DNA from: Athripsodes cinereus
Taxonomy: Eukaryota; Arthropoda; Insecta; Trichoptera; Leptoceridae
Direction of reading: 5' to 3'
Length of the DNA: 64,000 bases
Assembly: GCA_947579605.1 (NCBI GenBank)
Contig: OX388307.1
Location: forward strand, 6,735,237-6,799,236
Below the pieces are notes generated by a model that was given only the letters and a program-made list of their open reading frames with translations, did no database searches and was not told where the DNA came from. Positions 30,900 through 58,561 of the stretch are shown in pieces. The position numbers were made by a program, and so were the translations under genes. Every line of letters begins with the position of its first letter. The first letter of the stretch is position 1.

Positions 30900-31877
30900 T
30901 GTCACACTCATATACATAAACAACGGTTAGTTTCCGTTATCTCAAGTGTGATTCTTTACGGTGCCGGCTGAGTGACTCTTAATCTACAGGGTGTGGTTGT
31001 TCGGTGCCCCTTTTGTGTTGTTGCTTGCCCCGTGCGCTGTGAAGAGTTTGGAGGGAACAAATAAAGAACAGAATATGCGGTTATGAACAGGTCTATTTTA
31101 AACTGTGATTTCTAAATTATGTACAATCAATACAATGGCAATTTACTACTATTACATTACAAAGTTGATTGGCGTCTGAGAGAAAGCACCCCTATGTAGG
31201 TCTTCAATAAGAATGAGATAGGATAAGTAACAAAAGGTAATACAGTATAACGATGAAGTTCCTGGACTCCAGGCGAAGGCCTGGTAAAGGGTTCCCAAAG
31301 GGTTATGCGCTGAGGTCCATATGATCGATAGTGTAGATCGATAGCGTCTGTTTTGATAAATATTTAAAGAGGCATCCTCTTAGTCTCAGCAACAGGAGAA
31401 CTGGGGTTTATATGAGGCAAGTTATGTATTTACCCAACTTCCAGCAATCAGCATGGCGGACAAACCTTGCCGAGGGTTATCGATGAACTTGACCACGCCT
31501 AGTCACTTTTGTATTACTGTAAGTGTTCGCGAGGTCAGAGAGAGTTGTCCTCAAGGAGGTCTGGATCAGGGCACTCAATTAGACACTTATGGCTTCCTTA
31601 CCAGCCATTTTACACTAGGAGTCTAACTTTTCAGAATATTAATTATCAGAGAACACGGACCAACGTGTTGTTAGCACAAAGGCTGAACCGGAAGAAGAAT
31701 GAATCGTATCTCTCGGCGGTTGAATTTGGCATTATTTTAGGTTGGTGTCCCTTACTTGCTCACAGTATGGACAACTTGAACTAAATATTCTCTGGTTTAC
31801 AAAATTTAGGCGGGGAATTTAAATCTTTTTTGACATTTAACCTATATTTTCATATGTCAGATGTTTGCATCCTGACA
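30900..31877 (-). repeat. 3' LTR of the large retrotransposon
   Basis: It has the same length as the LTR at 57584-58561, and the sequence was identical wherever I compared them by eye. It starts TGTCACACTC and ends CATCCTGACA on +. The 91-codon plus-strand open frame in both LTRs starts on a non-ATG codon and is antisense to the element, so I do not call it a gene. Confidence 0.95.
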
Positions 31878-31891
31878 CATTCCCCCTTCTC
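31878..31891 (-). other. Polypurine tract of the large retrotransposon
   Basis: On the minus strand GAGAAGGGGGAATG directly precedes the 3' LTR (TGTCAGGATG). This is where plus-strand DNA synthesis would be primed, and it fixes the element's orientation. Confidence 0.85.
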
Positions 31892-32564
31892 GGAAAAGAC
31901 AAAAGAAATGAACTCAACCCCTAATGAGTTTAAGCGTGGGTGGTTTCTCTCATTTGGTTACAGGAAATCTATGGACATAAAATTCTTATCAATACAGTAT
32001 TACAGAGTTCAACAATGGATCATACATTATAATAGTTACATAGTTACAATGAGCAAATTTTTCAGCTGTTACAAAGTTTCACATGAAATGTTACCAAAAT
32101 TTGATGCATTTTTCTTGTTATCACTCTATGCCTTATTAAATTGACCATTCACTGCCTAGTAATGTGGCAAGCATCTAGGACTTTTTCACTTGTTGGTTAT
32201 TATTTTTATTTTATTTCAAAAAAAATTTCGTTGTGTTCTTCAATTTATCTTCTTTTTATTTTCTTGCGGCTGTTTTATTATTATTGGTTTGTATGGGTGA
32301 TTTCTCTCAACTAAATTTTCTTCCAATATTACAAAGTTTTTCCATTTTTTCTTAAAATTATACATTTTCAATTTTTCTTAAAATTATACATTTTTTTATA
32401 TTTCTTTTCTTTTATTGTCATCATTTTGACAATCCTTTCCCCCTTCCAGAAGAGAAAGAAAATTCTGATCAAAGTAACAATGGTGTTGGCTTCTCATGGT
32501 ACCACGTACCAAAGCACAGCACGAAATTACATAAGCAAAACAATGAATCTTCCAACATCTTGTG
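31892..32564. other. Non-coding internal region of the retrotransposon with a second purine tract
   Basis: No coding sense. At 32441-32462 the + strand reads cccccttccagaagagaaag, echoing the tract beside the LTR (cccccttctcggaaaagaca), and it is preceded by a similar gaca word. This is a second purine tract on the element's sense strand, perhaps a copied LTR-junction segment. Confidence 0.5.
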
Positions 32565-33375
32565 GTTGTCTACCAACCATCCGTGGTGATCAATAGTACA
32601 AGGTACTTTTATTGATTCAACACTAAATTTACACAAATTTTAACAATGACATATTTAACAATTTTGTAGTTGTTTATCAACCACCGTGTTGATCATTAGT
32701 ACGGAGTACTTTTAATGATTCAACACTAAATTTTTTACATATTTTACACAATTACAACAATTTTCTGTAGTTGTTCAGCAACTACCGTGTTGATCAATAG
32801 TACGGAGTACTTTTAATGATTCAACACTAAATTTTCACAAATTTTACAACAAATTACCTATACAAATACTGTGGTTGTTTGCCATCCACCGTGTTGATCA
32901 TTGGTACAGGAGTACTTTCAATAATTCAACACTAAATTCTTACACAGTTACAAAAACAAATACATATACAATTTCTGTGGTTGTTTGCCATCCACCGTGT
33001 TGATCATTGGTACAGGAGTACTTTCAATAATTCAACACTAAATTTACACAATTTACAAATACAAATACATATACGATTTCTGTGGTTGTTTAGCAGCCAC
33101 CGTGTTGATCATTGGTACAGGAGTACTTTCAATAATTCAACACTAAAATCTTACACAAGTTTTACAAATACAATTACATATACAATTTCTGTGGTTGTTT
33201 AGCAGCCACCGTGTTGATCAATAGTACGGAGTACTTTTAATGATTCAACACTAAATTTTTACATATTTTACACAATTACAACAATTTTCTGTAGTTGTTC
33301 AGCAACTACCGTGTTGATCAATAGTACGGAGTACTTTTAATGATTCAACACTAAATTTTTACACAATTACAAAGA
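32565..33375 (-). repeat. Internal minisatellite, about 100-109-bp units, eight copies
   Basis: Each unit has an anchor ccgtg(t/g)tgatca (32583, 32686, 32787, 32891, 32997, 33102, 33211, 33311 by its gtgttgatca part), then gtac..agtactttyaatra and ttcaacactaaat, then an AC-rich stretch. Spacing runs 100-109 bp. The tandem array begins inside the last unit, at its aacactaaat word. Confidence 0.9.
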
Positions 33376-33908
33376 CATTTAAATATTTAACAATTAGACA
33401 GACAACTCTGGGAAAAACCTATTTGAGCGCCACTTGCTTTTTGTCTCCGGGTATGCAAGAAACCCAATGTTAAGAGAATGCAACATTCTTGTAAAAAAAA
33501 CAAAAAAAAAATATATGGGCTCTCAGGTAGATAGCGTAAGGCTATCGCCTCCACCCCGACCGTGTGAAAATTCACAAAATTCAATTTTTCTCCAAACAAG
33601 TAACTTGTTTGTATCTTCTACTTCTCCTAGTCAGCCATTTGCTTTTCGTCTGGCTAGACTCTTAAGTTTCAATTTAAAATAAACATAAATAACAGACACA
33701 TTTAAATTTGATCAAACACCTGCAGTCTCTTCATGTAGCATTTCTTTGTGAAGGGATCAGTTTCATTTTGGAAATGCCCATAAATATGACAATTGCGATG
33801 CTGCAACAATCACTTAAGTCAATTTCACTTAAGACAACCGTTACAGCCGCAAGTCAGGGATTGAAAAAAAAATTTTTTTATGCAATAGAGAAAATTTAGG
33901 AGGGATGA

Positions 33909-34838
33909 TTAGTTTGATTTAACTAAATCCTTGATATGCCATTTACCCGCTGGTTTTCCATTCATATTGGCGAGTACGTAAACTGTTCCTGAAATTTTTA
34001 TCTTGCTGTCTGATAGTAGTCTAAATTCAGATGTATCCAGGCTTAAAGGATACGCAGCCAAACTGTTTCTTACTAAATTGATTAATTGCTTTGAAGGGTA
34101 AAAGGGACACGGAGTTGTGTCCACATCTTCGTCCTCGTGACCAATTGATCCATCTATGTCCTCGTGAGAGAGATCATCAACTGGAGCACACCAGTCGATT
34201 TTTGACTTGGGGGTGGAGCTGTCCCTCGATGGTTTTTCAGCGCGACGTTCAGAATCGGCTGGATTACTGACATTCTTCTTAGTGACTTGAATTCTTTTTG
34301 CCTCAGAATCGAAACTTTTTCCCACTTTTGGGAGATGCTCCGACTTCTGATCCTTCTTTCTTTCTTTGTCCTTACTGGTCCCTGGAATGTTTTCTTTCCT
34401 TGGTTTAACCTCTCTTTCAATGGGTATCAACCCAAGTTTAGAAAGACCCTCTGCTAATGCATTACCTGAGCTGGCGCTGTGTCTCGCGAATGTACCTCGA
34501 GAGACGCGTCCAACTGTGACAGTCTGCGAACCGTACATTGTTCGCGCAATCGCTTCTGGTCTCATGGGTTCGTTCAATGAGTATATATCTTTGGTCTCAT
34601 GGTCATAATACAAACGTGAGCGATAGATGGGTATGTGTACCCCATCTCCGCTCACTAACACTATTCGATGAATTCTTTTCGCAATTTCATTAGGTCTGAT
34701 TTGGTCTACTCTAACGAGAAACTCTTCTCGTGTAAAACCAGAGAAGTTATACGTTTCGGCATAAAATAACTGAGCTTTGGTCTCGGTGTCTATGTAGAGG
34801 CTCAGTGTATAGAAACACTTGCGTTCAACTGATGCCAT
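33909..34838 (-). CDS. Orphan 309-aa protein, copy 1 (most 3' in the element)
   Basis: I do not recognise this protein. ATG lies in a strong context (gcgccATGGca). Residues 1-120 look globular (start MASVERKCFYTLSLYIDTET; RPNEIAKRIHRIVLVSGDG; LYYDHETKDIYSLNEP). About 140-235 is charged and probably disordered (Lys/Arg/Glu/Ser-rich, KPRKENIPGTSKDKERKKDQ), then a short acidic stretch (HEDEDVD). A C-terminal segment (about 250-309) ends KWHIKDLVKSN. No CCHC knuckle, protease, RT or signal peptide. Its position just after the primer-binding site is where gag lies, so a structural or RNA-binding role is possible but is inference only. Copy 1 has a silent difference (agaaagacc for agaaaggcc at about 34441-34449) from the others. 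Confidence 0.8.
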   Translation of the reverse strand: MASVERKCFYTLSLYIDTETKAQLFYAETYNFSGFTREEFLVRVDQIRPNEIAKRIHRIVLVSGDGVHIPIYRSRLYYDHETKDIYSLNEPMRPEAIARTMYGSQTVTVGRVSRGTFARHSASSGNALAEGLSKLGLIPIEREVKPRKENIPGTSKDKERKKDQKSEHLPKVGKSFDSEAKRIQVTKKNVSNPADSERRAEKPSRDSSTPKSKIDWCAPVDDLSHEDIDGSIGHEDEDVDTTPCPFYPSKQLINLVRNSLAAYPLSLDTSEFRLLSDSKIKISGTVYVLANMNGKPAGKWHIKDLVKSN

Positions 34839-35771
34839 GGCGCTCGTAATAGATAGTAGTCTCGGATACTCGTCCGCTACTCCGGATGCACGTATTTTTT
34901 CACTGGGCGAATTTAAATTTTCATTATTTTTCCAATTTAAGAAACAATTTGTGAAAAGAATTTAAAAGGATTGATTCAAAAAGAAATTTCAAAAATTTCC
35001 GCACAAGTTGCGAAAACCGTGTGATGTCGGCTTTACTAACTATCGTGTGATGTTGGCCTTATAATTTGACGGTTACTTTGTTACGTACTTTGCACGTAAG
35101 CCAAACTTTGAAACGGATTTACATCAATAATAAAACCTCTTCAACAATCCACACCGCACAACACAAACACGCAACACACTTGGGAGCCAGTGTCACACTC
35201 ATATACATAAACACTAAATTTTTACACAATTACAAAGACATTTAAATATTTAACAATTAGACAGACAACTCTGGGAAAAACCTATTTGAGCGCCACTTGC
35301 TTTTTGTCTCCGGGTATGCAAGAAACCCAATGTTAAGAGAATGCAACATTCTTGTAAAAAAAACAAAAAAAAAATATATGGGCTCTCAGGTAGATAGCGT
35401 AAGGCTATCGCCTCCACCCCGACCGTGTGAAAATTCACAAAATTCAATTTTTCTCCAAACAAGTAACTTGTTTGTATCTTCTACTTCTCCTAGTCAGCCA
35501 TTTGCTTTTCGTCTGGCTAGACTCTTAAGTTTCAATTTAAAATAAACATAAATAACAGACACATTTAAATTTGATCAAACACCTGCAGTCTCTTCATGTA
35601 GCATTTCTTTGTGAAGGGATCAGTTTCATTTTGGAAATGCCCATAAATATGACAATTGCGATGCTGCAACAATCACTTAAGTCAATTTCACTTAAGACAA
35701 CCGTTACAGCCGCAAGTCAGGGATTGAAAAAAAAAATTTTTTATGCAATAGAGAAAATTTAGGAGGGATGA

Positions 35772-36701
35772 TTAGTTTGATTTAACTAAATCCTTGATAT
35801 GCCATTTACCCGCTGGTTTTCCATTCATATTGGCGAGTACGTAAACTGTTCCTGAAATTTTTATCTTGCTGTCTGATAGTAGTCTAAATTCAGATGTATC
35901 CAGGCTTAAAGGATACGCAGCCAAACTGTTTCTTACTAAATTGATTAATTGCTTTGAAGGGTAAAAGGGACACGGAGTTGTGTCCACATCTTCGTCCTCG
36001 TGACCAATTGATCCATCTATGTCCTCGTGAGAGAGATCATCAACTGGAGCACACCAGTCGATTTTTGACTTGGGGGTGGAGCTGTCCCTCGATGGTTTTT
36101 CAGCGCGACGTTCAGAATCGGCTGGATTACTGACATTCTTCTTAGTGACTTGAATTCTTTTTGCCTCAGAATCGAAACTTTTTCCCACTTTTGGGAGATG
36201 CTCCGACTTCTGATCCTTCTTTCTTTCTTTGTCCTTACTGGTCCCTGGAATGTTTTCTTTCCTTGGTTTAACCTCTCTTTCAATGGGTATCAACCCAAGT
36301 TTAGAAAGGCCCTCTGCTAATGCATTACCTGAGCTGGCGCTGTGTCTCGCGAATGTACCTCGAGAGACGCGTCCAACTGTGACAGTCTGCGAACCGTACA
36401 TTGTTCGCGCAATCGCTTCTGGTCTCATGGGTTCGTTCAATGAGTATATATCTTTGGTCTCATGGTCATAATACAAACGTGAGCGATAGATGGGTATGTG
36501 TACCCCATCTCCGCTCACTAACACTATTCGATGAATTCTTTTCGCAATTTCATTAGGTCTGATTTGGTCTACTCTAACGAGAAACTCTTCTCGTGTAAAA
36601 CCAGAGAAGTTATACGTTTCGGCATAAAATAACTGAGCTTTGGTCTCGGTGTCTATGTAGAGGCTCAGTGTATAGAAACACTTGCGTTCAACTGATGCCA
36701 T
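35772..36701 (-). CDS. Orphan 309-aa protein, copy 2
   Basis: Same protein sequence as copy 1. The A/T run downstream of the stop is distributed differently (nine A then six T on +). Confidence 0.8.
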   Translation of the reverse strand: MASVERKCFYTLSLYIDTETKAQLFYAETYNFSGFTREEFLVRVDQIRPNEIAKRIHRIVLVSGDGVHIPIYRSRLYYDHETKDIYSLNEPMRPEAIARTMYGSQTVTVGRVSRGTFARHSASSGNALAEGLSKLGLIPIEREVKPRKENIPGTSKDKERKKDQKSEHLPKVGKSFDSEAKRIQVTKKNVSNPADSERRAEKPSRDSSTPKSKIDWCAPVDDLSHEDIDGSIGHEDEDVDTTPCPFYPSKQLINLVRNSLAAYPLSLDTSEFRLLSDSKIKISGTVYVLANMNGKPAGKWHIKDLVKSN

Positions 36702-37634
36702 GGCGCTCGTAATAGATAGTAGTCTCGGATACTCGTCCGCTACTCCGGATGCACGTATTTTTTCACTGGGCGAATTTAAATTTTCATTATTTTTCCAATT
36801 TAAGAAACAATTTGTGAAAAGAATTTAAAAGGATTGATTCAAAAAGAAATTTCAAAAATTTCCGCACAAGTTGCGAAAACCGTGTGATGTCGGCTTTACT
36901 AACTATCGTGTGATGTTGGCCTTATAATTTGACGGTTACTTTGTTACGTACTTTGCACGTAAGCCAAACTTTGAAACGGATTTACATCAATAATAAAACC
37001 TCTTCAACAATCCACACCGCACAACACAAACACGCAACACACTTGGGAGCCAGTGTCACACTCATATACATAAACACTAAATTTTTACACAATTACAAAG
37101 ACATTTAAATATTTAACAATTAGACAGACAACTCTGGGAAAAACCTATTTGAGCGCCACTTGCTTTTTGTCTCCGGGTATGCAAGAAACCCAATGTTAAG
37201 AGAATGCAACATTCTTGTAAAAAAAACAAAAAAAAAATATATGGGCTCTCAGGTAGATAGCGTAAGGCTATCGCCTCCACCCCGACCGTGTGAAAATTCA
37301 CAAAATTCAATTTTTCTCCAAACAAGTAACTTGTTTGTATCTTCTACTTCTCCTAGTCAGCCATTTGCTTTTCGTCTGGCTAGACTCTTAAGTTTCAATT
37401 TAAAATAAACATAAATAACAGACACATTTAAATTTGATCAAACACCTGCAGTCTCTTCATGTAGCATTTCTTTGTGAAGGGATCAGTTTCATTTTGGAAA
37501 TGCCCATAAATATGACAATTGCGATGCTGCAACAATCACTTAAGTCAATTTCACTTAAGACAACCGTTACAGCCGCAAGTCAGGGATTGAAAAAAAAATT
37601 TTTTTATGCAATAGAGAAAATTTAGGAGGGATGA

Positions 37635-38564
37635 TTAGTTTGATTTAACTAAATCCTTGATATGCCATTTACCCGCTGGTTTTCCATTCATATTGGCGAG
37701 TACGTAAACTGTTCCTGAAATTTTTATCTTGCTGTCTGATAGTAGTCTAAATTCAGATGTATCCAGGCTTAAAGGATACGCAGCCAAACTGTTTCTTACT
37801 AAATTGATTAATTGCTTTGAAGGGTAAAAGGGACACGGAGTTGTGTCCACATCTTCGTCCTCGTGACCAATTGATCCATCTATGTCCTCGTGAGAGAGAT
37901 CATCAACTGGAGCACACCAGTCGATTTTTGACTTGGGGGTGGAGCTGTCCCTCGATGGTTTTTCAGCGCGACGTTCAGAATCGGCTGGATTACTGACATT
38001 CTTCTTAGTGACTTGAATTCTTTTTGCCTCAGAATCGAAACTTTTTCCCACTTTTGGGAGATGCTCCGACTTCTGATCCTTCTTTCTTTCTTTGTCCTTA
38101 CTGGTCCCTGGAATGTTTTCTTTCCTTGGTTTAACCTCTCTTTCAATGGGTATCAACCCAAGTTTAGAAAGGCCCTCTGCTAATGCATTACCTGAGCTGG
38201 CGCTGTGTCTCGCGAATGTACCTCGAGAGACGCGTCCAACTGTGACAGTCTGCGAACCGTACATTGTTCGCGCAATCGCTTCTGGTCTCATGGGTTCGTT
38301 CAATGAGTATATATCTTTGGTCTCATGGTCATAATACAAACGTGAGCGATAGATGGGTATGTGTACCCCATCTCCGCTCACTAACACTATTCGATGAATT
38401 CTTTTCGCAATTTCATTAGGTCTGATTTGGTCTACTCTAACGAGAAACTCTTCTCGTGTAAAACCAGAGAAGTTATACGTTTCGGCATAAAATAACTGAG
38501 CTTTGGTCTCGGTGTCTATGTAGAGGCTCAGTGTATAGAAACACTTGCGTTCAACTGATGCCAT
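37635..38564 (-). CDS. Orphan 309-aa protein, copy 3
   Basis: Protein identical to copy 1; carries the majority silent base at the agaaaggcc site. Confidence 0.8.
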   Translation of the reverse strand: MASVERKCFYTLSLYIDTETKAQLFYAETYNFSGFTREEFLVRVDQIRPNEIAKRIHRIVLVSGDGVHIPIYRSRLYYDHETKDIYSLNEPMRPEAIARTMYGSQTVTVGRVSRGTFARHSASSGNALAEGLSKLGLIPIEREVKPRKENIPGTSKDKERKKDQKSEHLPKVGKSFDSEAKRIQVTKKNVSNPADSERRAEKPSRDSSTPKSKIDWCAPVDDLSHEDIDGSIGHEDEDVDTTPCPFYPSKQLINLVRNSLAAYPLSLDTSEFRLLSDSKIKISGTVYVLANMNGKPAGKWHIKDLVKSN

Positions 38565-39497
38565 GGCGCTCGTAATAGATAGTAGTCTCGGATACTCGTC
38601 CGCTACTCCGGATGCACGTATTTTTTCACTGGGCGAATTTAAATTTTCATTATTTTTCCAATTTAAGAAACAATTTGTGAAAAGAATTTAAAAGGATTGA
38701 TTCAAAAAGAAATTTCAAAAATTTCCGCACAAGTTGCGAAAACCGTGTGATGTCGGCTTTACTAACTATCGTGTGATGTTGGCCTTATAATTTGACGGTT
38801 ACTTTGTTACGTACTTTGCACGTAAGCCAAACTTTGAAACGGATTTACATCAATAATAAAACCTCTTCAACAATCCACACCGCACAACACAAACACGCAA
38901 CACACTTGGGAGCCAGTGTCACACTCATATACATAAACACTAAATTTTTACACAATTACAAAGACATTTAAATATTTAACAATTAGACAGACAACTCTGG
39001 GAAAAACCTATTTGAGCGCCACTTGCTTTTTGTCTCCGGGTATGCAAGAAACCCAATGTTAAGAGAATGCAACATTCTTGTAAAAAAAACAAAAAAAAAA
39101 TATATGGGCTCTCAGGTAGATAGCGTAAGGCTATCGCCTCCACCCCGACCGTGTGAAAATTCACAAAATTCAATTTTTCTCCAAACAAGTAACTTGTTTG
39201 TATCTTCTACTTCTCCTAGTCAGCCATTTGCTTTTCGTCTGGCTAGACTCTTAAGTTTCAATTTAAAATAAACATAAATAACAGACACATTTAAATTTGA
39301 TCAAACACCTGCAGTCTCTTCATGTAGCATTTCTTTGTGAAGGGATCAGTTTCATTTTGGAAATGCCCATAAATATGACAATTGCGATGCTGCAACAATC
39401 ACTTAAGTCAATTTCACTTAAGACAACCGTTACAGCCGCAAGTCAGGGATTGAAAAAAAATTTTTTTTATGCAATAGAGAAAATTTAGGAGGGATGA

Positions 39498-40427
39498 TTA
39501 GTTTGATTTAACTAAATCCTTGATATGCCATTTACCCGCTGGTTTTCCATTCATATTGGCGAGTACGTAAACTGTTCCTGAAATTTTTATCTTGCTGTCT
39601 GATAGTAGTCTAAATTCAGATGTATCCAGGCTTAAAGGATACGCAGCCAAACTGTTTCTTACTAAATTGATTAATTGCTTTGAAGGGTAAAAGGGACACG
39701 GAGTTGTGTCCACATCTTCGTCCTCGTGACCAATTGATCCATCTATGTCCTCGTGAGAGAGATCATCAACTGGAGCACACCAGTCGATTTTTGACTTGGG
39801 GGTGGAGCTGTCCCTCGATGGTTTTTCAGCGCGACGTTCAGAATCGGCTGGATTACTGACATTCTTCTTAGTGACTTGAATTCTTTTTGCCTCAGAATCG
39901 AAACTTTTTCCCACTTTTGGGAGATGCTCCGACTTCTGATCCTTCTTTCTTTCTTTGTCCTTACTGGTCCCTGGAATGTTTTCTTTCCTTGGTTTAACCT
40001 CTCTTTCAATGGGTATCAACCCAAGTTTAGAAAGGCCCTCTGCTAATGCATTACCTGAGCTGGCGCTGTGTCTCGCGAATGTACCTCGAGAGACGCGTCC
40101 AACTGTGACAGTCTGCGAACCGTACATTGTTCGCGCAATCGCTTCTGGTCTCATGGGTTCGTTCAATGAGTATATATCTTTGGTCTCATGGTCATAATAC
40201 AAACGTGAGCGATAGATGGGTATGTGTACCCCATCTCCGCTCACTAACACTATTCGATGAATTCTTTTCGCAATTTCATTAGGTCTGATTTGGTCTACTC
40301 TAACGAGAAACTCTTCTCGTGTAAAACCAGAGAAGTTATACGTTTCGGCATAAAATAACTGAGCTTTGGTCTCGGTGTCTATGTAGAGGCTCAGTGTATA
40401 GAAACACTTGCGTTCAACTGATGCCAT
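39498..40427 (-). CDS. Orphan 309-aa protein, copy 4
   Basis: Protein identical to copy 1. The run after the stop is eight A then eight T on +, the form shared with copies 5-8 and 11. Confidence 0.8.
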   Translation of the reverse strand: MASVERKCFYTLSLYIDTETKAQLFYAETYNFSGFTREEFLVRVDQIRPNEIAKRIHRIVLVSGDGVHIPIYRSRLYYDHETKDIYSLNEPMRPEAIARTMYGSQTVTVGRVSRGTFARHSASSGNALAEGLSKLGLIPIEREVKPRKENIPGTSKDKERKKDQKSEHLPKVGKSFDSEAKRIQVTKKNVSNPADSERRAEKPSRDSSTPKSKIDWCAPVDDLSHEDIDGSIGHEDEDVDTTPCPFYPSKQLINLVRNSLAAYPLSLDTSEFRLLSDSKIKISGTVYVLANMNGKPAGKWHIKDLVKSN

Positions 40428-41360
40428 GGCGCTCGTAATAGATAGTAGTCTCGGATACTCGTCCGCTACTCCGGATGCACGTATTTTTTCACTGGGCGAA
40501 TTTAAATTTTCATTATTTTTCCAATTTAAGAAACAATTTGTGAAAAGAATTTAAAAGGATTGATTCAAAAAGAAATTTCAAAAATTTCCGCACAAGTTGC
40601 GAAAACCGTGTGATGTCGGCTTTACTAACTATCGTGTGATGTTGGCCTTATAATTTGACGGTTACTTTGTTACGTACTTTGCACGTAAGCCAAACTTTGA
40701 AACGGATTTACATCAATAATAAAACCTCTTCAACAATCCACACCGCACAACACAAACACGCAACACACTTGGGAGCCAGTGTCACACTCATATACATAAA
40801 CACTAAATTTTTACACAATTACAAAGACATTTAAATATTTAACAATTAGACAGACAACTCTGGGAAAAACCTATTTGAGCGCCACTTGCTTTTTGTCTCC
40901 GGGTATGCAAGAAACCCAATGTTAAGAGAATGCAACATTCTTGTAAAAAAAACAAAAAAAAAATATATGGGCTCTCAGGTAGATAGCGTAAGGCTATCGC
41001 CTCCACCCCGACCGTGTGAAAATTCACAAAATTCAATTTTTCTCCAAACAAGTAACTTGTTTGTATCTTCTACTTCTCCTAGTCAGCCATTTGCTTTTCG
41101 TCTGGCTAGACTCTTAAGTTTCAATTTAAAATAAACATAAATAACAGACACATTTAAATTTGATCAAACACCTGCAGTCTCTTCATGTAGCATTTCTTTG
41201 TGAAGGGATCAGTTTCATTTTGGAAATGCCCATAAATATGACAATTGCGATGCTGCAACAATCACTTAAGTCAATTTCACTTAAGACAACCGTTACAGCC
41301 GCAAGTCAGGGATTGAAAAAAAATTTTTTTTATGCAATAGAGAAAATTTAGGAGGGATGA

Positions 41361-42149: not shown

Positions 42150-42191
<42 letters not shown>

Positions 42192-48384: not shown

Positions 48385-49317
48385 GGCGCTCGTAATAGAT
48401 AGTAGTCTCGGATACTCGTCCGCTACTCCGGATGCACGTATTTTTTCACTGGGCGAATTTAAATTTTCATTATTTTTCCAATTTAAGAAACAATTTGTGA
48501 AAAGAATTTAAAAGGATTGATTCAAAAAGAAATTTCAAAAATTTCCGCACAAGTTGCGAAAACCGTGTGATGTCGGCTTTACTAACTATCGTGTGATGTT
48601 GGCCTTATAATTTGACGGTTACTTTGTTACGTACTTTGCACGTAAGCCAAACTTTGAAACGGATTTACATCAATAATAAAACCTCTTCAACAATCCACAC
48701 CGCACAACACAAACACGCAACACACTTGGGAGCCAGTGTCACACTCATATACATAAACACTAAATTTTTACACAATTACAAAGACATTTAAATATTTAAC
48801 AATTAGACAGACAACTCTGGGAAAAACCTATTTGAGCGCCACTTGCTTTTTGTCTCCGGGTATGCAAGAAACCCAATGTTAAGAGAATGCAACATTCTTG
48901 TAAAAAAAACAAAAAAAAAATATATGGGCTCTCAGGTAGATAGCGTAAGGCTATCGCCTCCACCCCGACCGTGTGAAAATTCACAAAATTCAATTTTTCT
49001 CCAAACAAGTAACTTGTTTGTATCTTCTACTTCTCCTAGTCAGCCATTTGCTTTTCGTCTGGCTAGACTCTTAAGTTTCAATTTAAAATAAACATAAATA
49101 ACAGACACATTTAAATTTGATCAAACACCTGCAGTCTCTTCATGTAGCATTTCTTTGTGAAGGGATCAGTTTCATTTTGGAAATGCCCATAAATATGACA
49201 ATTGCGATGCTGCAACAATCACTTAAGTCAATTTCACTTAAGACAACCGTTACAGCCGCAAGTCAGGGATTGAAAAAAAAAATTTTTTATGCAATAGAGA
49301 AAATTTAGGAGGGATGA

Positions 49318-50247
49318 TTAGTTTGATTTAACTAAATCCTTGATATGCCATTTACCCGCTGGTTTTCCATTCATATTGGCGAGTACGTAAACTGTTCCTG
49401 AAATTTTTATCTTGCTGTCTGATAGTAGTCTAAATTCAGATGTATCCAGGCTTAAAGGATACGCAGCCAAACTGTTTCTTACTAAATTGATTAATTGCTT
49501 TGAAGGGTAAAAGGGACACGGAGTTGTGTCCACATCTTCGTCCTCGTGACCAATTGATCCATCTATGTCCTCGTGAGAGAGATCATCAACTGGAGCACAC
49601 CAGTCGATTTTTGACTTGGGGGTGGAGCTGTCCCTCGATGGTTTTTCAGCGCGACGTTCAGAATCGGCTGGATTACTGACATTCTTCTTAGTGACTTGAA
49701 TTCTTTTTGCCTCAGAATCGAAACTTTTTCCCACTTTTGGGAGATGCTCCGACTTCTGATCCTTCTTTCTTTCTTTGTCCTTACTGGTCCCTGGAATGTT
49801 TTCTTTCCTTGGTTTAACCTCTCTTTCAATGGGTATCAACCCAAGTTTAGAAAGGCCCTCTGCTAATGCATTACCTGAGCTGGCGCTGTGTCTCGCGAAT
49901 GTACCTCGAGAGACGCGTCCAACTGTGACAGTCTGCGAACCGTACATTGTTCGCGCAATCGCTTCTGGTCTCATGGGTTCGTTCAATGAGTATATATCTT
50001 TGGTCTCATGGTCATAATACAAACGTGAGCGATAGATGGGTATGTGTACCCCATCTCCGCTCACTAACACTATTCGATGAATTCTTTTCGCAATTTCATT
50101 AGGTCTGATTTGGTCTACTCTAATGAGAAACTCTTCTCGTGTAAAACCAGAGAAGTTATACGTTTCGGCATAAAATAACTGAGCTTTGGTCTCGGTGTCT
50201 ATGTAGAGGCTCAGTGTATAGAAACACTTGCGTTCAACTGATGCCAT
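49318..50247 (-). CDS. Orphan 309-aa protein, copy 9
   Basis: One conservative substitution, Val to Ile, in EEFLIRVDQIRPNE (about residue 42); the base is visible at about 50124 (taatgag for taacgag). Confidence 0.8.
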   Translation of the reverse strand: MASVERKCFYTLSLYIDTETKAQLFYAETYNFSGFTREEFLIRVDQIRPNEIAKRIHRIVLVSGDGVHIPIYRSRLYYDHETKDIYSLNEPMRPEAIARTMYGSQTVTVGRVSRGTFARHSASSGNALAEGLSKLGLIPIEREVKPRKENIPGTSKDKERKKDQKSEHLPKVGKSFDSEAKRIQVTKKNVSNPADSERRAEKPSRDSSTPKSKIDWCAPVDDLSHEDIDGSIGHEDEDVDTTPCPFYPSKQLINLVRNSLAAYPLSLDTSEFRLLSDSKIKISGTVYVLANMNGKPAGKWHIKDLVKSN

Positions 50248-51180
50248 GGCGCTCGTAATAGATAGTAGTCTCGGATACTCGTCCGCTACTCCGGATGCAC
50301 GTATTTTTTCACTGGGCGAATTTAAATTTTCATTATTTTTCCAATTTAAGAAACAATTTGTGAAAAGAATTTAAAAGGATTGATTCAAAAAGAAATTTCA
50401 AAAATTTCCGCACAAGTTGCGAAAACCGTGTGATGTCGGCTTTACTAACTATCGTGTGATGTTGGCCTTATAATTTGACGGTTACTTTGTTACGTACTTT
50501 GCACGTAAGCCAAACTTTGAAACGGATTTACATCAATAATAAAACCTCTTCAACAATCCACACCGCACAACACAAACACGCAACACACTTGGGAGCCAGT
50601 GTCACACTCATATACATAAACACTAAATTTTTACACAATTACAAAGACATTTAAATATTTAACAATTAGACAGACAACTCTGGGAAAAACCTATTTGAGC
50701 GCCACTTGCTTTTTGTCTCCGGGTATGCAAGAAACCCAATGTTAAGAGAATGCAACATTCTTGTAAAAAAAACAAAAAAAAAATATATGGGCTCTCAGGT
50801 AGATAGCGTAAGGCTATCGCCTCCACCCCGACCGTGTGAAAATTCACAAAATTCAATTTTTCTCCAAACAAGTAACTTGTTTGTATCTTCTACTTCTCCT
50901 AGTCAGCCATTTGCTTTTCGTCTGGCTAGACTCTTAAGTTTCAATTTAAAATAAACATAAATAACAGACACATTTAAATTTGATCAAACACCTGCAGTCT
51001 CTTCATGTAGCATTTCTTTGTGAAGGGATCAGTTTCATTTTGGAAATGCCCATAAATATGACAATTGCGATGCTGCAACAATCACTTAAGTCAATTTCAC
51101 TTAAGACAACCGTTACAGCCGCAAGTCAGGGATTGAAAAAAAAATTTTTTTATGCAATAGAGAAAATTTAGGAGGGATGA

Positions 51181-52110
51181 TTAGTTTGATTTAACTAAAT
51201 CCTTGATATGCCATTTACCCGCTGGTTTTCCATTCATATTGGCGAGTACGTAAACTGTTCCTGAAATTTTTATCTTGCTGTCTGATAGTAGTCTAAATTC
51301 AGATGTATCCAGGCTTAAAGGATACGCAGCCAAACTGTTTCTTACTAAATTGATTAATTGCTTTGAAGGGTAAAAGGGACACGGAGTTGTGTCCACATCT
51401 TCGTCCTCGTGACCAATTGATCCATCTATGTCCTCGTGAGAGAGATCATCAACTGGAGCACACCAGTCGATTTTTGACTTGGGGGTGGAGCTGTCCCTCG
51501 ATGGTTTTTCAGCGCGACGTTCAGAATCGGCTGGATTACTGACATTCTTCTTAGTGACTTGAATTCTTTTTGCCTCAGAATCGAAACTTTTTCCCACTTT
51601 TGGGAGATGCTCCGACTTCTGATCCTTCTTTCTTTCTTTGTCCTTACTGGTCCCTGGAATGTTTTCTTTCCTTGGTTTAACCTCTCTTTCAATGGGTATC
51701 AACCCAAGTTTAGAAAGGCCCTCTGCTAATGCATTACCTGAGCTGGCGCTGTGTCTCGCGAATGTACCTCGAGAGACGCGTCCAACTGTGACAGTCTGCG
51801 AACCGTACATTGTTCGCGCAATCGCTTCTGGTCTCATGGGTTCGTTCAATGAGTATATATCTTTGGTCTCATGGTCATAATACAAACGTGAGCGATAGAT
51901 GGGTATGTGTACCCCATCTCCGCTCACTAACACTATTCGATGAATTCTTTTCGCAATTTCATTAGGTCTGATTTGGTCTACTCTAACGAGAAACTCTTCT
52001 CGTGTAAAACCAGAGAAGTTATACGTTTCGGCATAAAATAACTGAGCTTTGGTCTCGGTGTCTATGTAGAGGCTCAGTGTATAGAAACACTTGCGTTCAA
52101 CTGATGCCAT
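51181..52110 (-). CDS. Orphan 309-aa protein, copy 10
   Basis: Protein identical to copy 1. No distinguishing change seen within the frame. Confidence 0.8.
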   Translation of the reverse strand: MASVERKCFYTLSLYIDTETKAQLFYAETYNFSGFTREEFLVRVDQIRPNEIAKRIHRIVLVSGDGVHIPIYRSRLYYDHETKDIYSLNEPMRPEAIARTMYGSQTVTVGRVSRGTFARHSASSGNALAEGLSKLGLIPIEREVKPRKENIPGTSKDKERKKDQKSEHLPKVGKSFDSEAKRIQVTKKNVSNPADSERRAEKPSRDSSTPKSKIDWCAPVDDLSHEDIDGSIGHEDEDVDTTPCPFYPSKQLINLVRNSLAAYPLSLDTSEFRLLSDSKIKISGTVYVLANMNGKPAGKWHIKDLVKSN

Positions 52111-53043
52111 GGCGCTCGTAATAGATAGTAGTCTCGGATACTCGTCCGCTACTCCGGATGCACGTATTTTTTCACTGGGCGAATTTAAATTTTCATTATT
52201 TTTCCAATTTAAGAAACAATTTGTGAAAAGAATTTAAAAGGATTGATTCAAAAAGAAATTTCAAAAATTTCCGCACAAGTTGCGAAAACCGTGTGATGTC
52301 GGCTTTACTAACTATCGTGTGATGTTGGCCTTATAATTTGACGGTTACTTTGTTACGTACTTTGCACGTAAGCCAAACTTTGAAACGGATTTACATCAAT
52401 AATAAAACCTCTTCAACAATCCACACCGCACAACACAAACACGCAACACACTTGGGAGCCAGTGTCACACTCATATACATAAACACTAAATTTTTACACA
52501 ATTACAAAGACATTTAAATATTTAACAATTAGACAGACAACTCTGGGAAAAACCTATTTGAGCGCCACTTGCTTTTTGTCTCCGGGTATGCAAGAAACCC
52601 AATGTTAAGAGAATGCAACATTCTTGTAAAAAAAACAAAAAAAAAATATATGGGCTCTCAGGTAGATAGCGTAAGGCTATCGCCTCCACCCCGACCGTGT
52701 GAAAATTCACAAAATTCAATTTTTCTCCAAACAAGTAACTTGTTTGTATCTTCTACTTCTCCTAGTCAGCCATTTGCTTTTCGTCTGGCTAGACTCTTAA
52801 GTTTCAATTTAAAATAAACATAAATAACAGACACATTTAAATTTGATCAAACACCTGCAGTCTCTTCATGTAGCATTTCTTTGTGAAGGGATCAGTTTCA
52901 TTTTGGAAATGCCCATAAATATGACAATTGCGATGCTGCAACAATCACTTAAGTCAATTTCACTTAAGACAACCGTTACAGCCGCAAGTCAGGGATTGAA
53001 AAAAAATTTTTTTTATGCAATAGAGAAAATTTAGGAGGGATGA

Positions 53044-53973
53044 TTAGTTTGATTTAACTAAATCCTTGATATGCCATTTACCCGCTGGTTTTCCATTCAT
53101 ATTGGCGAGTACGTAAACTGTTCCTGAAATTTTTATCTTGCTGTCTGATAGTAGTCTAAATTCAGATGTATCCAGGCTTAAAGGATACGCAGCCAAACTG
53201 TTTCTTACTAAATTGATTAATTGCTTTGAAGGGTAAAAGGGACACGGAGTTGTGTCCACATCTTCGTCCTCGTGACCAATTGATCCATCTATGTCCTCGT
53301 GAGAGAGATCATCAACTGGAGCACACCAGTCGATTTTTGACTTGGGGGTGGAGCTGTCCCTCGATGGTTTTTCAGCGCGACGTTCAGAATCGGCTGGATT
53401 ACTGACATTCTTCTTAGTGACTTGAATTCTTTTTGCCTCAGAATCGAAACTTTTTCCCACTTTTGGGAGATGCTCCGACTTCTGATCCTTCTTTCTTTCT
53501 TTGTCCTTACTGGTCCCTGGAATGTTTTCTTTCCTTGGTTTAACCTCTCTTTCAATGGGTATCAACCCAAGTTTAGAAAGGCCCTCTGCTAATGCATTAC
53601 CTGAGCTGGCGCTGTGTCTCGCGAATGTACCTCGAGAGACGCGTCCAACTGTGACAGTCTGCGAACCGTACATTGTTCGCGCAATCGCTTCTGGTCTCAT
53701 GGGTTCGTTCAATGAGTATATATCTTTGGTCTCATGGTCATAATACAAACGTGAGCGATAGATGGGTATGTGTACCCCATCTCTGCTCACTAACACTATT
53801 CGATGAATTCTTTTCGCAATTTCATTAGGTCTGATTTGGTCTACTCTAACGAGAAACTCTTCTCGTGTAAAACCAGAGAAGTTATACGTTTCGGCATAAA
53901 ATAACTGAGCTTTGGTCTCGGTGTCTATGTAGAGGCTCAGTGTATAGAAACACTTGCGTTCAACTGATGCCAT
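53044..53973 (-). CDS. Orphan 309-aa protein, copy 11 (next to the 5' LTR)
   Basis: This copy is closest to the promoter-bearing 5' LTR and so would be the one translated from a genome-length transcript, but the LINE at 54187-57439 now sits between it and the LTR. It has a Gly to Arg change (LVSRDGVH for LVSGDGVH), and its leader has attccgg for actccgg near 54015. Confidence 0.8.
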   Translation of the reverse strand: MASVERKCFYTLSLYIDTETKAQLFYAETYNFSGFTREEFLVRVDQIRPNEIAKRIHRIVLVSRDGVHIPIYRSRLYYDHETKDIYSLNEPMRPEAIARTMYGSQTVTVGRVSRGTFARHSASSGNALAEGLSKLGLIPIEREVKPRKENIPGTSKDKERKKDQKSEHLPKVGKSFDSEAKRIQVTKKNVSNPADSERRAEKPSRDSSTPKSKIDWCAPVDDLSHEDIDGSIGHEDEDVDTTPCPFYPSKQLINLVRNSLAAYPLSLDTSEFRLLSDSKIKISGTVYVLANMNGKPAGKWHIKDLVKSN

Positions 53974-54186
53974 GGCGCTCGTAATAGATAGTAGTCTCGG
54001 ATACTCGTCCGCTATTCCGGATGCACGTATTTTTTCACTGGGCGAATTTAAATTTTCATTATTTTTCCAATTTAAGAAACAATTTGTGAAAAGAATTTAA
54101 AAGGATTGATTCAAAAATAAATTTCAAAAATTTCCGCACAAGTTGCGAAAACCGTGTGATGTCGGCTTTACTAACTATCGTGTGAT

Positions 54187-57100
54187 TTTTTTTTTTTTTT
54201 TTTTTATTTATTTATAATTTTTTTTTAAAACATTTACATAGTTAACAAATACATATAAATAAAACATTATTTTTCAATGACTCAACTTCAAAAAGAGAAA
54301 ATCTCGTGTTTTGAAGTGAGCTACATTGTTACAATATTACAAAACAATACAAAAGTAAATAAAAAGAAAACAATATCAAAAACATTACCAGAAAAAATCC
54401 TGAAACCTTCCATAAACTTGAAAAGAAAAAATAAGTAAAACACATCGTACAAAAATAAACATGTTAGTACAAATTAAATAACAATAAGGTACAATATTTT
54501 CAATCAATACTCTATACACAAAGAAAAGAAAAATCTACTTCATTAACTTTTTTAAAGCTAACTTAAACTTAGCTATACCAATATTTGCTAGATCCTTGCA
54601 ATCCACCGGCAAAGCATTATACCACTTCACTCCTAGGTAGGAGTAGTGGTTTTGCGCAAACGTTGTATTTTTTTTTGGTATTTTTATAAGACCACCTAAA
54701 CGAGGCAATGTGCTAATGCACTCCACCGGGTGGATCGGATCAGTTATATATTCCTTACAAATACGCAGCACAGCTTGTCTCCTATATATTGTGTCCAATC
54801 TTAATACTCCAAAGTCAGAAAACAGTTGGTCAGATGGGTAATCACTCGGCTTATGCAATATAATCTTAATAATTTTTCGCTGTATGATGTAAAGTGGCTT
54901 CAAGCTGGTAGAATATATTCCTCCCCATCCTATTATTCCATACTGCATAACCGACTGTGCAAGAGCATAGTAAACCATTTTTAACACATTCGTACATAAA
55001 AAACTTCTGAGACGATAAAAGACATAAAATATTTTTCTCAATCTCTCTACAGTCATAAACAATTGATCTCTCCATTTTAATTCCGAATCAACCAGCACAC
55101 CCAAATATCTAACCGAACTATGTACTTTCAATCTAACACATTCAGTTTCTTCACCATAACATTTCATATCACAATCATAGCGGTGGATTCTAACATCCAA
55201 ATTTTTAGGTACATTTTTTTCATTAATAGAGAAAGGTAGCACTGCAGTCTTTTGAGCATTCAGCGTTAACAAATTTAGGTCGAACCATGATCTTAGAACA
55301 CCCATCTCCACATTTGCCACTTCAACAACCTCATCCCATGTGTCACCCACAGATAACATCACCGTATCATCTGCGAAAGAAACAATTTCAGATCGAATAT
55401 TTATATCAAACAGATTATTTACATATATTAAAAACATTATAGGCCCCAAGACAGTGCCTTGTGGTATGCCATAAGTGGAACAAGCATGGTCGCTCAACAC
55501 ATCTCTCAACCTGACATGCTGCTTTCGGTTATATAAGTAGCTTCTTAACCAATTTAAACATGCATCATCGAACCCAATTTTATTTAGTCTACGTATTAAT
55601 CTCTCATAGCTAATACTATCAAAAGCCTTTTGTAGGTCTATGAATAATCCAATACATTTTTTACCATTATCCAATGCATTGCAGACCACAGATGTCAATC
55701 TGGCAATAGCATCCTCTGTCCCAATTCCTTCTCTAAACCCAAATTGATTTTTACTAAATATAGCATTATCATCAGTATATTTGAGTATTCTTTTTTTCAC
55801 TACTCTTTCATAGATTTTAGCAATACTTGAAGTAAGTGATATCGGTCTATAATTTGTTGGGTTCTTCCTATCGCCAGACTTGAATACCGGAGTAACATGT
55901 GTGATTTTATAGATAGATGGGAAAACTCCTTCTTTCAAACTGTTATTAATTATGTAAGTGAGTGGCCTCACCAGTTGTGCAAGATTAGTCTTTAATAGCT
56001 CAACAGTTACACCGTCGAAACCAGGCGACGTTCCACCCTTCATTGACTTCACTATAGTTTCGATTTCACTCTCATTTACGATCTCAAACTGCTTATATTG
56101 TTTTGAAACAGGTGAATCTCCTTCATCAACATTCATAACACTGGGAGTAATATTATTAATCTTACTTGCAAGGTCAGCTCCTACAGAGGTAAAAAAATCA
56201 TTAAAAACATTTGCACATTTCTTAGGTTCCTTAGAAACATTTAATATCTGCTCCTCATTAATTATTTCAGTAATAGGACTAAATTTCTTTCTTTTATTTA
56301 TTGCTTCATTTATTGTATCCCATACTTTCTTTGCACTTTGTCCAGCAAGTTCAACCTTTTTAGCAAAATATTTGTTCTTTGCTTGTCGAATAAGATCAGT
56401 CAGCATATTCCTATATTGCCTGAATATTGTCCTTGTCGCAAAATCGTTCGGATATTGCAAAGTCCTTCTATATAATTTTTCCTTGTTTCTTATAGAAACA
56501 ACAAGTCCATGAGTAATCCATGGCTTAATACGCCTATATTTAGATTTAATATTGCTCTTAACTTCAACAAGGGACGTTGCATCTTTAATATGTTTATCAA
56601 GAATCTCATGGAAAACCAAAGCACTATCTTCCGCACCACCGCAATCATATAACCGAGACCAATTTTCAGATAGTAACAAACCCTTTAAATATTCCATATT
56701 CAACCTTGCACACTGTAAAGTCATTGATGTTCGTTCATAGTTTGTTCTATTTACTAATATTTTTTTCACAAGTATCGTTGTATGATGATCTGTAATAGAA
56801 TTCTTCCATATAAGCGCTGTAATATTTTCTAGTCCTTCTATCGGTTCGTTTATCCAAAAATGATCAATACATGATGGTGTCTGTCCCAGAACTTGACGGG
56901 TGTATTTCCTTATGCAAAGCTTAAAATTATGATCACTTAGTCGGTCGATGTACTCGGCCTTGTCAGCTCCATCATAGTCATCGGAAACATTTATATTTAT
57001 ATCACCCGCTATCACAACACTTTTACCTTTTAGCTCATCCGCTATTTTACCGATATTATTTAAGAAAACATTTATATCAGAACCATGAGTCCTATAGACA

Positions 57101-57439
57101 GCAATCACGTGAAATTCACATTTTAATATTCTAAAGTTTATTTGTAAGCAATTAATTAAGGGTATATCTATTTCCACAACCGAAATATCACATAATCTTT
57201 CATTGATATACACCGATATTCCACTATTCCTGTTTATAATTTTTGAGGTGGAAAAATATTCATAATTGGGAATTGGATAAGTAGGACTATTCATATTCAG
57301 ATGAGCTTCCGTCAAAATGATGACATCAGGCCTACACTCAAGCGTATCCAAATGTATAAGAAACTCGTCATAATTTTTTTGTATGCTTCTAATATTAAGG
57401 TGCATCACCACAAATTTATCAATACTTTGAGACAAAACA
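54187..57439 (-). mobile_element. LINE (non-LTR retrotransposon), 5'-truncated, inserted in array unit 11
   Basis: GTGAT flanks it at 54182-54186 and 57440-57444. The left end on + is a long T-run then tttatttatttataat, i.e. an A-rich 3' end on the element's strand. At the right end the coding frame runs straight to the junction with no upstream ORF or 5' UTR, so the copy is 5'-truncated at or near the endonuclease start. The same 3' end occurs at 5611-5826. Confidence 0.93.
54535..57435 (-). CDS. LINE ORF2: endonuclease-reverse transcriptase (CR1/Jockey-like)
   Basis: The frame of about 966 codons has no internal stop. N-terminal third: APE-type endonuclease with VVMHLNIRSI, VIILTEAHLN (catalytic Glu), VIAGDININ (Asp, Asn), SITDHHTTI (terminal Asp-His). 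Then RT with SPGFDGVTVELLK, NPTNYRPISLTSS, NQFGFREG, GLFIDLQKAFDSI (motif A), GIPQGTVLGPIMFLIYVNN, SFADDTVML (catalytic FADD) and thumb YLGVLVDSELKWRD. No RNase H. The reported start is TTG at the truncation point, not a true initiator; the first in-frame Met is about ten codons in (MHLNIRS). ORF1 is absent. Clade is judged from motif style only. Confidence 0.9.
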   Translation of the reverse strand: MSQSIDKFVVMHLNIRSIQKNYDEFLIHLDTLECRPDVIILTEAHLNMNSPTYPIPNYEYFSTSKIINRNSGISVYINERLCDISVVEIDIPLINCLQINFRILKCEFHVIAVYRTHGSDINVFLNNIGKIADELKGKSVVIAGDININVSDDYDGADKAEYIDRLSDHNFKLCIRKYTRQVLGQTPSCIDHFWINEPIEGLENITALIWKNSITDHHTTILVKKILVNRTNYERTSMTLQCARLNMEYLKGLLLSENWSRLYDCGGAEDSALVFHEILDKHIKDATSLVEVKSNIKSKYRRIKPWITHGLVVSIRNKEKLYRRTLQYPNDFATRTIFRQYRNMLTDLIRQAKNKYFAKKVELAGQSAKKVWDTINEAINKRKKFSPITEIINEEQILNVSKEPKKCANVFNDFFTSVGADLASKINNITPSVMNVDEGDSPVSKQYKQFEIVNESEIETIVKSMKGGTSPGFDGVTVELLKTNLAQLVRPLTYIINNSLKEGVFPSIYKITHVTPVFKSGDRKNPTNYRPISLTSSIAKIYERVVKKRILKYTDDNAIFSKNQFGFREGIGTEDAIARLTSVVCNALDNGKKCIGLFIDLQKAFDSISYERLIRRLNKIGFDDACLNWLRSYLYNRKQHVRLRDVLSDHACSTYGIPQGTVLGPIMFLIYVNNLFDINIRSEIVSFADDTVMLSVGDTWDEVVEVANVEMGVLRSWFDLNLLTLNAQKTAVLPFSINEKNVPKNLDVRIHRYDCDMKCYGEETECVRLKVHSSVRYLGVLVDSELKWRDQLFMTVERLRKIFYVFYRLRSFLCTNVLKMVYYALAQSVMQYGIIGWGGIYSTSLKPLYIIQRKIIKIILHKPSDYPSDQLFSDFGVLRLDTIYRRQAVLRICKEYITDPIHPVECISTLPRLGGLIKIPKKNTTFAQNHYSYLGVKWYNALPVDCKDLANIGIAKFKLALKKLMK

Positions 57440-57569
57440 GTGATGTTGGCCTTATAATTTGACGGTTACTTTGTTACGTACTTTGCACGTAAGCCAAACT
57501 TTGAAACGGATTTACATCAATAATAAAACCTCTTCAACAATCCACACCGCACAACACAAACACGCAACA

Positions 57570-57582
57570 CACTTGGGAGCCA
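57570..57582 (-). other. Primer-binding site of the large retrotransposon
   Basis: On the minus strand the 5' LTR ends GTGTGACA, then one C, then TGGCTCCCAAGTG. The TGG start complements a tRNA CCA end, as in tRNA-primed LTR elements. I cannot name the tRNA. The same 13-mer recurs in each of the other ten tandem units (about 35177 in unit 1). Confidence 0.8.
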
Positions 57583-57583
57583 G

Positions 57584-58558
57584 TGTCACACTCATATACA
57601 TAAACAACGGTTAGTTTCCGTTATCTCAAGTGTGATTCTTTACGGTGCCGGCTGAGTGACTCTTAATCTACAGGGTGTGGTTGTTCGGTGCCCCTTTTGT
57701 GTTGTTGCTTGCCCCGTGCGCTGTGAAGAGTTTGGAGGGAACAAATAAAGAACAGAATATGCGGTTATGAACAGGTCTATTTTAAACTGTGATTTCTAAA
57801 TTATGTACAATCAATACAATGGCAATTTACTACTATTACATTACAAAGTTGATTGGCGTCTGAGAGAAAGCACCCCTATGTAGGTCTTCAATAAGAATGA
57901 GATAGGATAAGTAACAAAAGGTAATACAGTATAACGATGAAGTTCCTGGACTCCAGGCGAAGGCCTGGTAAAGGGTTCCCAAAGGGTTATGCGCTGAGGT
58001 CCATATGATCGATAGTGTAGATCGATAGCGTCTGTTTTGATAAATATTTAAAGAGGCATCCTCTTAGTCTCAGCAACAGGAGAACTGGGGTTTATATGAG
58101 GCAAGTTATGTATTTACCCAACTTCCAGCAATCAGCATGGCGGACAAACCTTGCCGAGGGTTATCGATGAACTTGACCACGCCTAGTCACTTTTGTATTA
58201 CTGTAAGTGTTCGCGAGGTCAGAGAGAGTTGTCCTCAAGGAGGTCTGGATCAGGGCACTCAATTAGACACTTATGGCTTCCTTACCAGCCATTTTACACT
58301 AGGAGTCTAACTTTTCAGAATATTAATTATCAGAGAACACGGACCAACGTGTTGTTAGCACAAAGGCTGAACCGGAAGAAGAATGAATCGTATCTCTCGG
58401 CGGTTGAATTTGGCATTATTTTAGGTTGGTGTCCCTTACTTGCTCACAGTATGGACAACTTGAACTAAATATTCTCTGGTTTACAAAATTTAGGCGGGGA
58501 ATTTAAATCTTTTTTGACATTTAACCTATATTTTCATATGTCAGATGTTTGCATCCTG

Positions 58559-58561
<3 letters not shown>
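57584..58561 (-). repeat. 5' LTR of the large retrotransposon
   Basis: 978 bp, matching 30900-31877. On the element's strand it starts TGTCAGGATGC and ends ATGAGTGTGACA. Promoter elements were not pinned down. Confidence 0.95.

Follow-up and report, generated by a model that had tools for sequence, protein, structure and literature searches.

Non-autonomous long terminal repeat (LTR) retrotransposons include large retrotransposon derivatives (LARD), TR-GAG elements and gene carriers such as maize Bs1. In the reports cited here, LARD is named among the non-autonomous LTR elements (PMC7215508), the short tandem repeats in the 3′ untranslated region (UTR) of the plant Tat/Ogre and Retand elements are described as able to expand to satellites (PMC7004042, PMC11963269), and the terminal-repeat retrotransposon in miniature (TRIM) Cassandra and the BARE1 element are described in LTR-sharing arrays, with up to 12 repeats per Cassandra array (PMC7215508). 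Here we describe an LTR element of the trichopteran Athripsodes cinereus that carries eleven tandem copies of a unit comprising a putative primer-binding site (PBS), a leader and a whole open reading frame (ORF). It lies in a 64,000-nt stretch of contig OX388307.1 (G000:C3:6735237-6799236; hereafter, the window), part of an assembly of 716 Mb in 160 contigs. In the titles and abstract openings of the open-licence literature that we searched, we found no description of an array within an LTR element that is both coding and PBS-bearing, and the array here appears to represent a known process in an unusual form, at a single locus.

The minus strand of the window contains one LTR element of 27.7 kb (30900-58561), with its 5′ end at 58561. 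The original prediction, made from the letters alone, had proposed such an element, with 978-bp LTRs on both sides, a PBS, a purine tract and eleven near-identical 1,863-bp units, each carrying the end of the LTR, the PBS and a 309-aa ORF (ten intact). This anatomy was upheld, with a PBS-like site in the place of the PBS, and its main features are as follows.

57584-58561, minus strand: 5′ LTR, 978 bp, TGTCAGG...TGTGACA, with TATAAA at LTR position 466
57565-57583, minus strand: PBS-like site, CTGGCTCCCAAGTG..., immediately adjoining the inner end of the 5′ LTR
Lower ends at 35172, 37035, 38898, 40761, 43128, 44992, 46855, 48718, 50581 and 52444, minus strand: ten further exact copies of the PBS-like site
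57440-57583, minus strand: leader, 144 bp, repeated in every unit, within unit positions 1-315, which are also found in the related copy L039
33347-57606, minus strand: tandem array, 11 units of 1,863 bp
33347, 35210, 37073, 38936, 40799, 43166, 45030, 46893, 48756, 50619 and 52482 (plus-strand coordinates), minus strand: unit starts
35187-35220, minus strand: example of a unit junction, in which TGTT links the 3′UTR with the final 23 nt of the LTR
32561-33386, minus strand: tandem repeats of ~105 bp in the 3′UTR, 7.8 copies over 32561-33368, with the array breakpoint inside the last copy
31878-33346, minus strand: 3′ tail, with repeats and a polypurine tract beside the 3′ LTR, 88.6% identical to L039
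30900-31877, minus strand: 3′ LTR, 978 bp, outer flank (AT)n

The two LTRs are identical (978/978), and both copies begin with TG and end with CA, as Ty3/gypsy LTR retrotransposons require. The polypurine tract, CCGAGAAGGGGGAA in the sense direction, adjoins the 3′ LTR. The PBS-like site is in the right position for a PBS and is also present in two other family copies (L007 and L008); a motif scan found its exact sequence eleven times in the element and the full U5-PBS context once. Neither the ORF list nor a Pfam scan of the element yielded Gag and a Pol of the order protease, reverse transcriptase, RNase H, integrase; LTRs, leader and tail are retained and pol is lost, as in LARD-like derivatives. 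That this is a single element, as originally proposed, is supported by the (AT)n on both outer flanks (within which a target duplication is unreadable), by the identity of the LTRs and by the smaller spacing of the 14 other LTR pairs listed in the genome. The same flanks and identical LTRs speak against two separate insertions with a satellite of other origin between them, and against whole elements arranged in the usual LTR-sharing tandem. Although an LTR-sharing tandem copy seems present elsewhere in the genome (L056, see below), the leader and tail here are continuous with the LTRs, just 23 nt of LTR recur in each unit and the junction structure contradicts this alternative, which we consider exceedingly improbable.

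In each unit, the final 23 nt of the LTR are followed by the PBS-like site, the leader, the 309-codon ORF and 3′UTR. Units are 99.7-99.9% identical to one another and, two large inserts aside, differ in nine columns and one extra base in unit 6. The tandem junction is present in ten exact copies in the array, each with the 4-nt microhomology TGTT; microhomology of at least 4 nt is expected in 2.1% of random joints. Searching the genome with a 231-bp query spanning the junction (best 40 of 199 candidates scored) returned 50 matches, of which ten were full, all in the window array, and 40 partial. An eleven-fold, 20-kb repeat makes a chance origin impossible. Among the scored candidates the junction was confined to the window locus, so the proposal of a general route from retrotransposon to satellite, taken by many copies, is so far not borne out. 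The attribution of the 27.7-kb length to internal tandem copies stood in part: the array is real, but ~3.76 kb belongs to two nested insertions that had gone unnoticed (3,258 and 504 bp, target duplications included).

These insertions also bear on whether the assembler inflated a smaller array, as the near-identity of the units might suggest. The two different unit-specific inserts, together with scattered single variants, place the units, and the near-identical runs between the inserts extend for only ~8.5 kb (33347-41804) and ~11.9 kb (42304-54186), lengths that long reads would normally span; 160 contigs for 716 Mb suggests that long reads were used. We therefore regard an assembly artefact as quite unlikely.

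The array resembles those of Tat/Ogre and Retand, as described in the reports cited, in lying within an LTR element, downstream of its coding part and ahead of the 3′ LTR, and in being expanded at some loci, and the window family likewise has ~105-bp repeats in its 3′UTR, as well as ~140-bp repeats in its 5′UTR. However, the plant units described there are 3′UTR or pol-to-3′LTR repeats, whereas the 1,863-bp unit spans a PBS-like site, a leader and a whole ORF, and is not the short 3′UTR repeat that characterises 3′UTR-derived satellites. The arrays of Cassandra and BARE1, as portrayed in the report on them, are similarly near-identical tandem copies of an LTR element, but in them LTRs alternate with internal domains, and LTR recombination or template switching is proposed; in the window array, no full LTR separates the internal domains, and each unit has 23 nt of LTR and a microhomology joint.

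With LARD, TR-GAG and Bs1, the window element shares the missing gag-pol, the retained LTRs, leader and tail, and a captured foreign coding sequence; it differs from them in that the captured gene has no family assignment and stands in eleven tandem copies. We rejected TR-GAG, an intact Gag ORF without pol, as a description of the element: its ORF has no Pfam match, and the family Gag is a separate ORF in L039.

Scoring 40 of 293 candidates from a genome search with the LTR gave 41 rows and, one LTR being split over two rows, at least 40 LTRs: the two of the window element, those of 14 further pairs, and 10 for which no partner is listed. The start-to-start spacing of the other listed pairs is 3.6-4.8 kb in 13 of the 14 and 8.8 kb in one. 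Seven of the 14 pairs were read in detail (L039-L043, L046 and L047). The 8.8-kb copy, L039 (on C9), has a separate 462-aa Gag with a CCHC motif and a 1,046-aa Pol, with Pfam matches to Retrotrans_gag (3e-7), zf-CCHC (2e-4), RVT_1 (6e-32), RT_RNaseH (4e-38) and rve (2e-15); a match to the protease family RVP (0.01) fell under the cut-off. This fuller relative is a Ty3/gypsy element, and it is apparently autonomous. Membership of BEL/Pao was ruled out by a Pol with the integrase last and by 4-bp target duplications at two solo LTRs (ACGT at L004 and AATG at L006). The other six copies, of ~4 kb, consist of the leader, ~140-bp 5′UTR repeats like those of L039 and, beyond these, the post-pol region and the tail. 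Differences between 5′ and 3′ LTRs are few in most copies (0/978 in the window element, 0/978 in L041, 0/984 in L046, 1/979 in L040, 4/985 in L047 and 23/978 in L042), indicating that the family moved recently. L042 (G000:C4:220014-226193) has one LTR with 8 differences from the window LTR and another with 20, which hints at recombination.

A related subfamily is represented by L056 (G000:C22:2787600-2793400), in which 2,284 bp, all that is comparable in the stretch, is repeated at 100% with a period of 3,517. The tandem copy there looks LTR-sharing, and a further match at C22:2763894 suggests a longer cluster.

Comparison with L039 bears on the nature of the ORF. The window element shares with it the LTR (96%), the leader, the end of pol and the tail. 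Within the unit, positions 1-315 and 1203-1863 are shared, whereas positions 316-1202 are not. The sole significant match of the 309-aa ORF in L039 is that of residues 281-309, in Pol. Those 29 residues are identical (29/29) in L039, L048, L049 and L050, and residues ~280-309 match the family's Pol C-termini across the genome at 93-97%. At the joint between ORF and pol, the short identities AGCAAGATA and AAAATTTC are shared with the pol end. The ORF and its parts lie as follows.

33909-34838, minus strand: 309-aa ORF of unit 1, intact
35772-36701, 37635-38564, 39498-40427, 43729-44658, 45592-46521, 47455-48384, 49318-50247, 51181-52110 and 53044-53973, minus strand: the other intact 309-aa ORFs
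33912-34001, minus strand: last 30 codons of the unit 1 ORF, matching the C-terminus of the family Pol

By these alignments, the ORF combines ~280 codons of foreign origin with an in-frame remnant of pol, its final ~30 codons, and the foreign stretch takes the place of the 5′UTR repeats, gag and nearly all of pol. The reading of the ORF as Gag-like was thus mistaken, the family Gag being the different, 462-aa CCHC protein. We also rejected the ORF as the family's usual upstream gene for the seven copies read: L039 has no match to its foreign part, and the six ~4-kb copies have ~140-bp 5′UTR repeats there.

The encoded protein (P0002) has few relatives. A genome search, with 128 of 177 candidates scored, gave 38 matches: the ten full copies, two halves of the broken unit 5 copy, two loci on C24 (L044 and L045) and 24 that cover residues ~280-309 only. 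Alone, the protein had no match among 1,141 candidates from 5.8 billion proteins, no Pfam match even at E 10, and none in the PDB, viral contigs or phage records. A profile of three copies, run against the same 5.8 billion proteins (5,402 candidates), gave one match, a protein of Parnassius apollo (P0006; E 1e-11, 37% over 138 aligned positions). Used as a query in turn, P0006 matched one further protein among 37 candidates, also of P. apollo, and against the A. cinereus genome gave 13 matches (15/15 candidates scored), namely the eleven units and the two C24 loci. The relatives found are thus these two loci and two P. apollo proteins. Among the scored candidates, the full-length ORF occurs only in the window array, and neither genome search found a single-unit source copy in the assembly. 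A six-frame search, which could miss a diverged or absent source, found no intron-bearing gene for the captured ORF in the genome. The predicted structure is of too low confidence to use (mean pLDDT 37 alone and 32 with two relatives). The captured codons may derive from an exogenous virus or from a gene since lost.

Comparison with the C24 loci indicates that the ~280 codons evolved under purifying selection. Over 254 codons, the ORF and L045 have 74% protein identity and 69.6% DNA identity, and their differences fall 41/47/144 by codon position, with dN 0.17 (dS is saturated and not computable); random mutation to the same divergence left a mean protein identity of 44%, with a maximum of 48% in 300 runs. 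Against L044, dN is 0.019 and dS 0.162. The gene is accordingly a constrained one without family assignment, carried by one retroelement and adjoining parts of two others. At L044 (G000:C24:8468500-8478000), part of the captured gene is present in a copy of 95% identity, and the ORFs adjoining it look LINE-like by eye. At L045 (G000:C24:14644000-14653500) the relative stands beside an open 485-aa gypsy Gag frame, 31% identical to the L039 Gag; the locus is scrambled by 887-bp inverted repeats (99%), and a clean gypsy element with the captured gene as its first ORF was not borne out.

Could the array have been retained by selection for more of this protein? The ORF is intact in 10 of the 11 units, and purifying selection acted on the gene, either earlier than the array or elsewhere. 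However, the youth of the array suffices to account for intact frames; three of the four ORF substitutions among units alter the protein, and the sole visible promoter, in the 5′ LTR, is now trailed by a long interspersed nuclear element (LINE). We consider such dosage selection very unlikely.

For the origin of the array, we lean towards a non-autonomous Ty3/gypsy chimaera that inserted once and recently, followed by a duplication seeded at microhomology and expanded in place. The anatomy, the replacement of gag-pol, the junction unique among scored candidates and the nested inserts, each in a single unit, are direct observations, from which we infer a template switch and the expansion. During reverse transcription of a family RNA, a template switch would have replaced the 5′UTR repeats, gag and almost all of pol with ~280 codons of another gene, which thereby became fused in frame to the pol end. 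The chimaeric cDNA would then have entered an (AT)n tract using the enzymes of relatives such as L039. A joint at 4-nt microhomology, linking the 3′UTR with the terminal 23 nt of the 5′ LTR, would have doubled the block of LTR end, PBS, leader, ORF and 3′UTR, and unequal exchange in place may have taken two units to eleven while keeping them alike. Finally, a LINE would have entered the 5′-most unit, and unit 5 would have received an LTR element of which a solo LTR is left. We prefer expansion in place because neither a source copy nor a second junction locus was found among the scored candidates, and the tandem copy at L056 indicates that tandem duplication of such elements has occurred elsewhere in the genome.

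Alternatively, the array may have been made in reverse transcription. A ~24-kb RNA would be long for a particle, which counts against this route, as does its need for a single-unit source locus, which was not found, and the lack of a second junction locus among the scored candidates. The minus strand, primed at the PBS, would have run 23 nt into U5 and jumped via TGTT to the 3′UTR of the same or a co-packaged RNA; ordinary second-strand transfer would, by reasoning rather than computation, then give a two-unit element with the observed junction, and internal PBS priming with transfer at another PBS could add units in each cycle. A junction 23 nt upstream of the PBS, with 4-nt microhomology, fits this route, and for tandem repeats or arrays of plant LTR elements the cited reports propose abnormal strand transfer or a switch of template (PMC7004042, PMC7215508). 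We hold this origin to be a tentative possibility, and rather doubtful. If true, it would offer a testable answer to how tandem repeats arise inside LTR elements. A fuller version, in which growth proceeds via the PBS of each unit (from n to up to 2n-1 units per cycle) with a cargo from outside the family (perhaps taken from a virus not yet known, or from a host gene since lost) which also sits beside a LINE-like ORF and a second gypsy Gag, seems unlikely.

Several points weigh against the favoured expansion in place. The breakpoint lies just 23 nt ahead of the PBS, a position that an early minus-strand transfer would equally produce, and the source copy might be missing from the single assembly. 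Variants between units are too sparse to show unequal exchange or to decide the mechanism: one compound site matches a seven-unit period in three of four comparisons, which 7.7% of shuffles equal (any period 3-7), and site 227 is common to units 5 and 11, inconsistent with that period. The placement of the poly(A) signal is a weak point for any model that would require a packaged full-length RNA of the window copy. A sense-strand scan found one TATAAA and no AATAAA or ATTAAA in the LTR, five AATAAA and four ATTAAA in the tail, and none of the three motifs in unit 2, the one unit scanned, which thus shows neither an internal promoter nor a poly(A) signal of these types. With several signals in the tail and none in the LTR, the transcript may end within the tail instead of reaching the 3′ LTR.

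The nested insertions date from after the array, as suggested by the confinement of each to one unit.

54187-57439, minus strand: LINE (non-LTR retrotransposon), 3.25 kb, in the 5′-most unit between leader and ORF
54535-57405, minus strand: reverse transcriptase ORF of the LINE, 956 aa, RVT_1 8e-34, with a weak endonuclease match under the cut-off
41805-42303, no strand assigned: LTR-like insert, 499 bp, TGTAAT...CTTACA, with a 5-bp target duplication TGATC, disrupting the ORF of unit 5

The LINE has a poly(A) tail, an AATAAA ahead of the poly(A) end and a short target duplication, ATCAC, whose first A is ambiguous with the tail. Since its poly(A) end sits between the leader and the first ORF, full-length transcription is now doubtful, and an RNA with eleven PBS copies is probably no longer produced. 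The ends and target duplication of the 499-bp insert suggest a solo LTR. The LINE's tail and target duplication also ruled out another candidate, that the units are spliced subgenomic cDNA with the leader spliced past the 956-aa ORF. The window element can be read as an intermediate on the way from retrotransposon to coding satellite, with a history that can be ordered from cargo swap through insertion, seed junction and expansion to the later insertions.

The window contains two further ORFs of note outside the element, both on the minus strand. The first, at 19540-21273, is an intact 577-aa transposase ORF (DDE_Tnp_1_7, 3e-83), which we take to be of piggyBac type. The second, at 60056-62236, encodes 726 aa and has no Pfam match at E 1. 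It contains an 84-bp unit twice in tandem (60369-60538, 91%), and by eye its C-terminal stretch resembles what we take to be a Crypton-type tyrosine recombinase.

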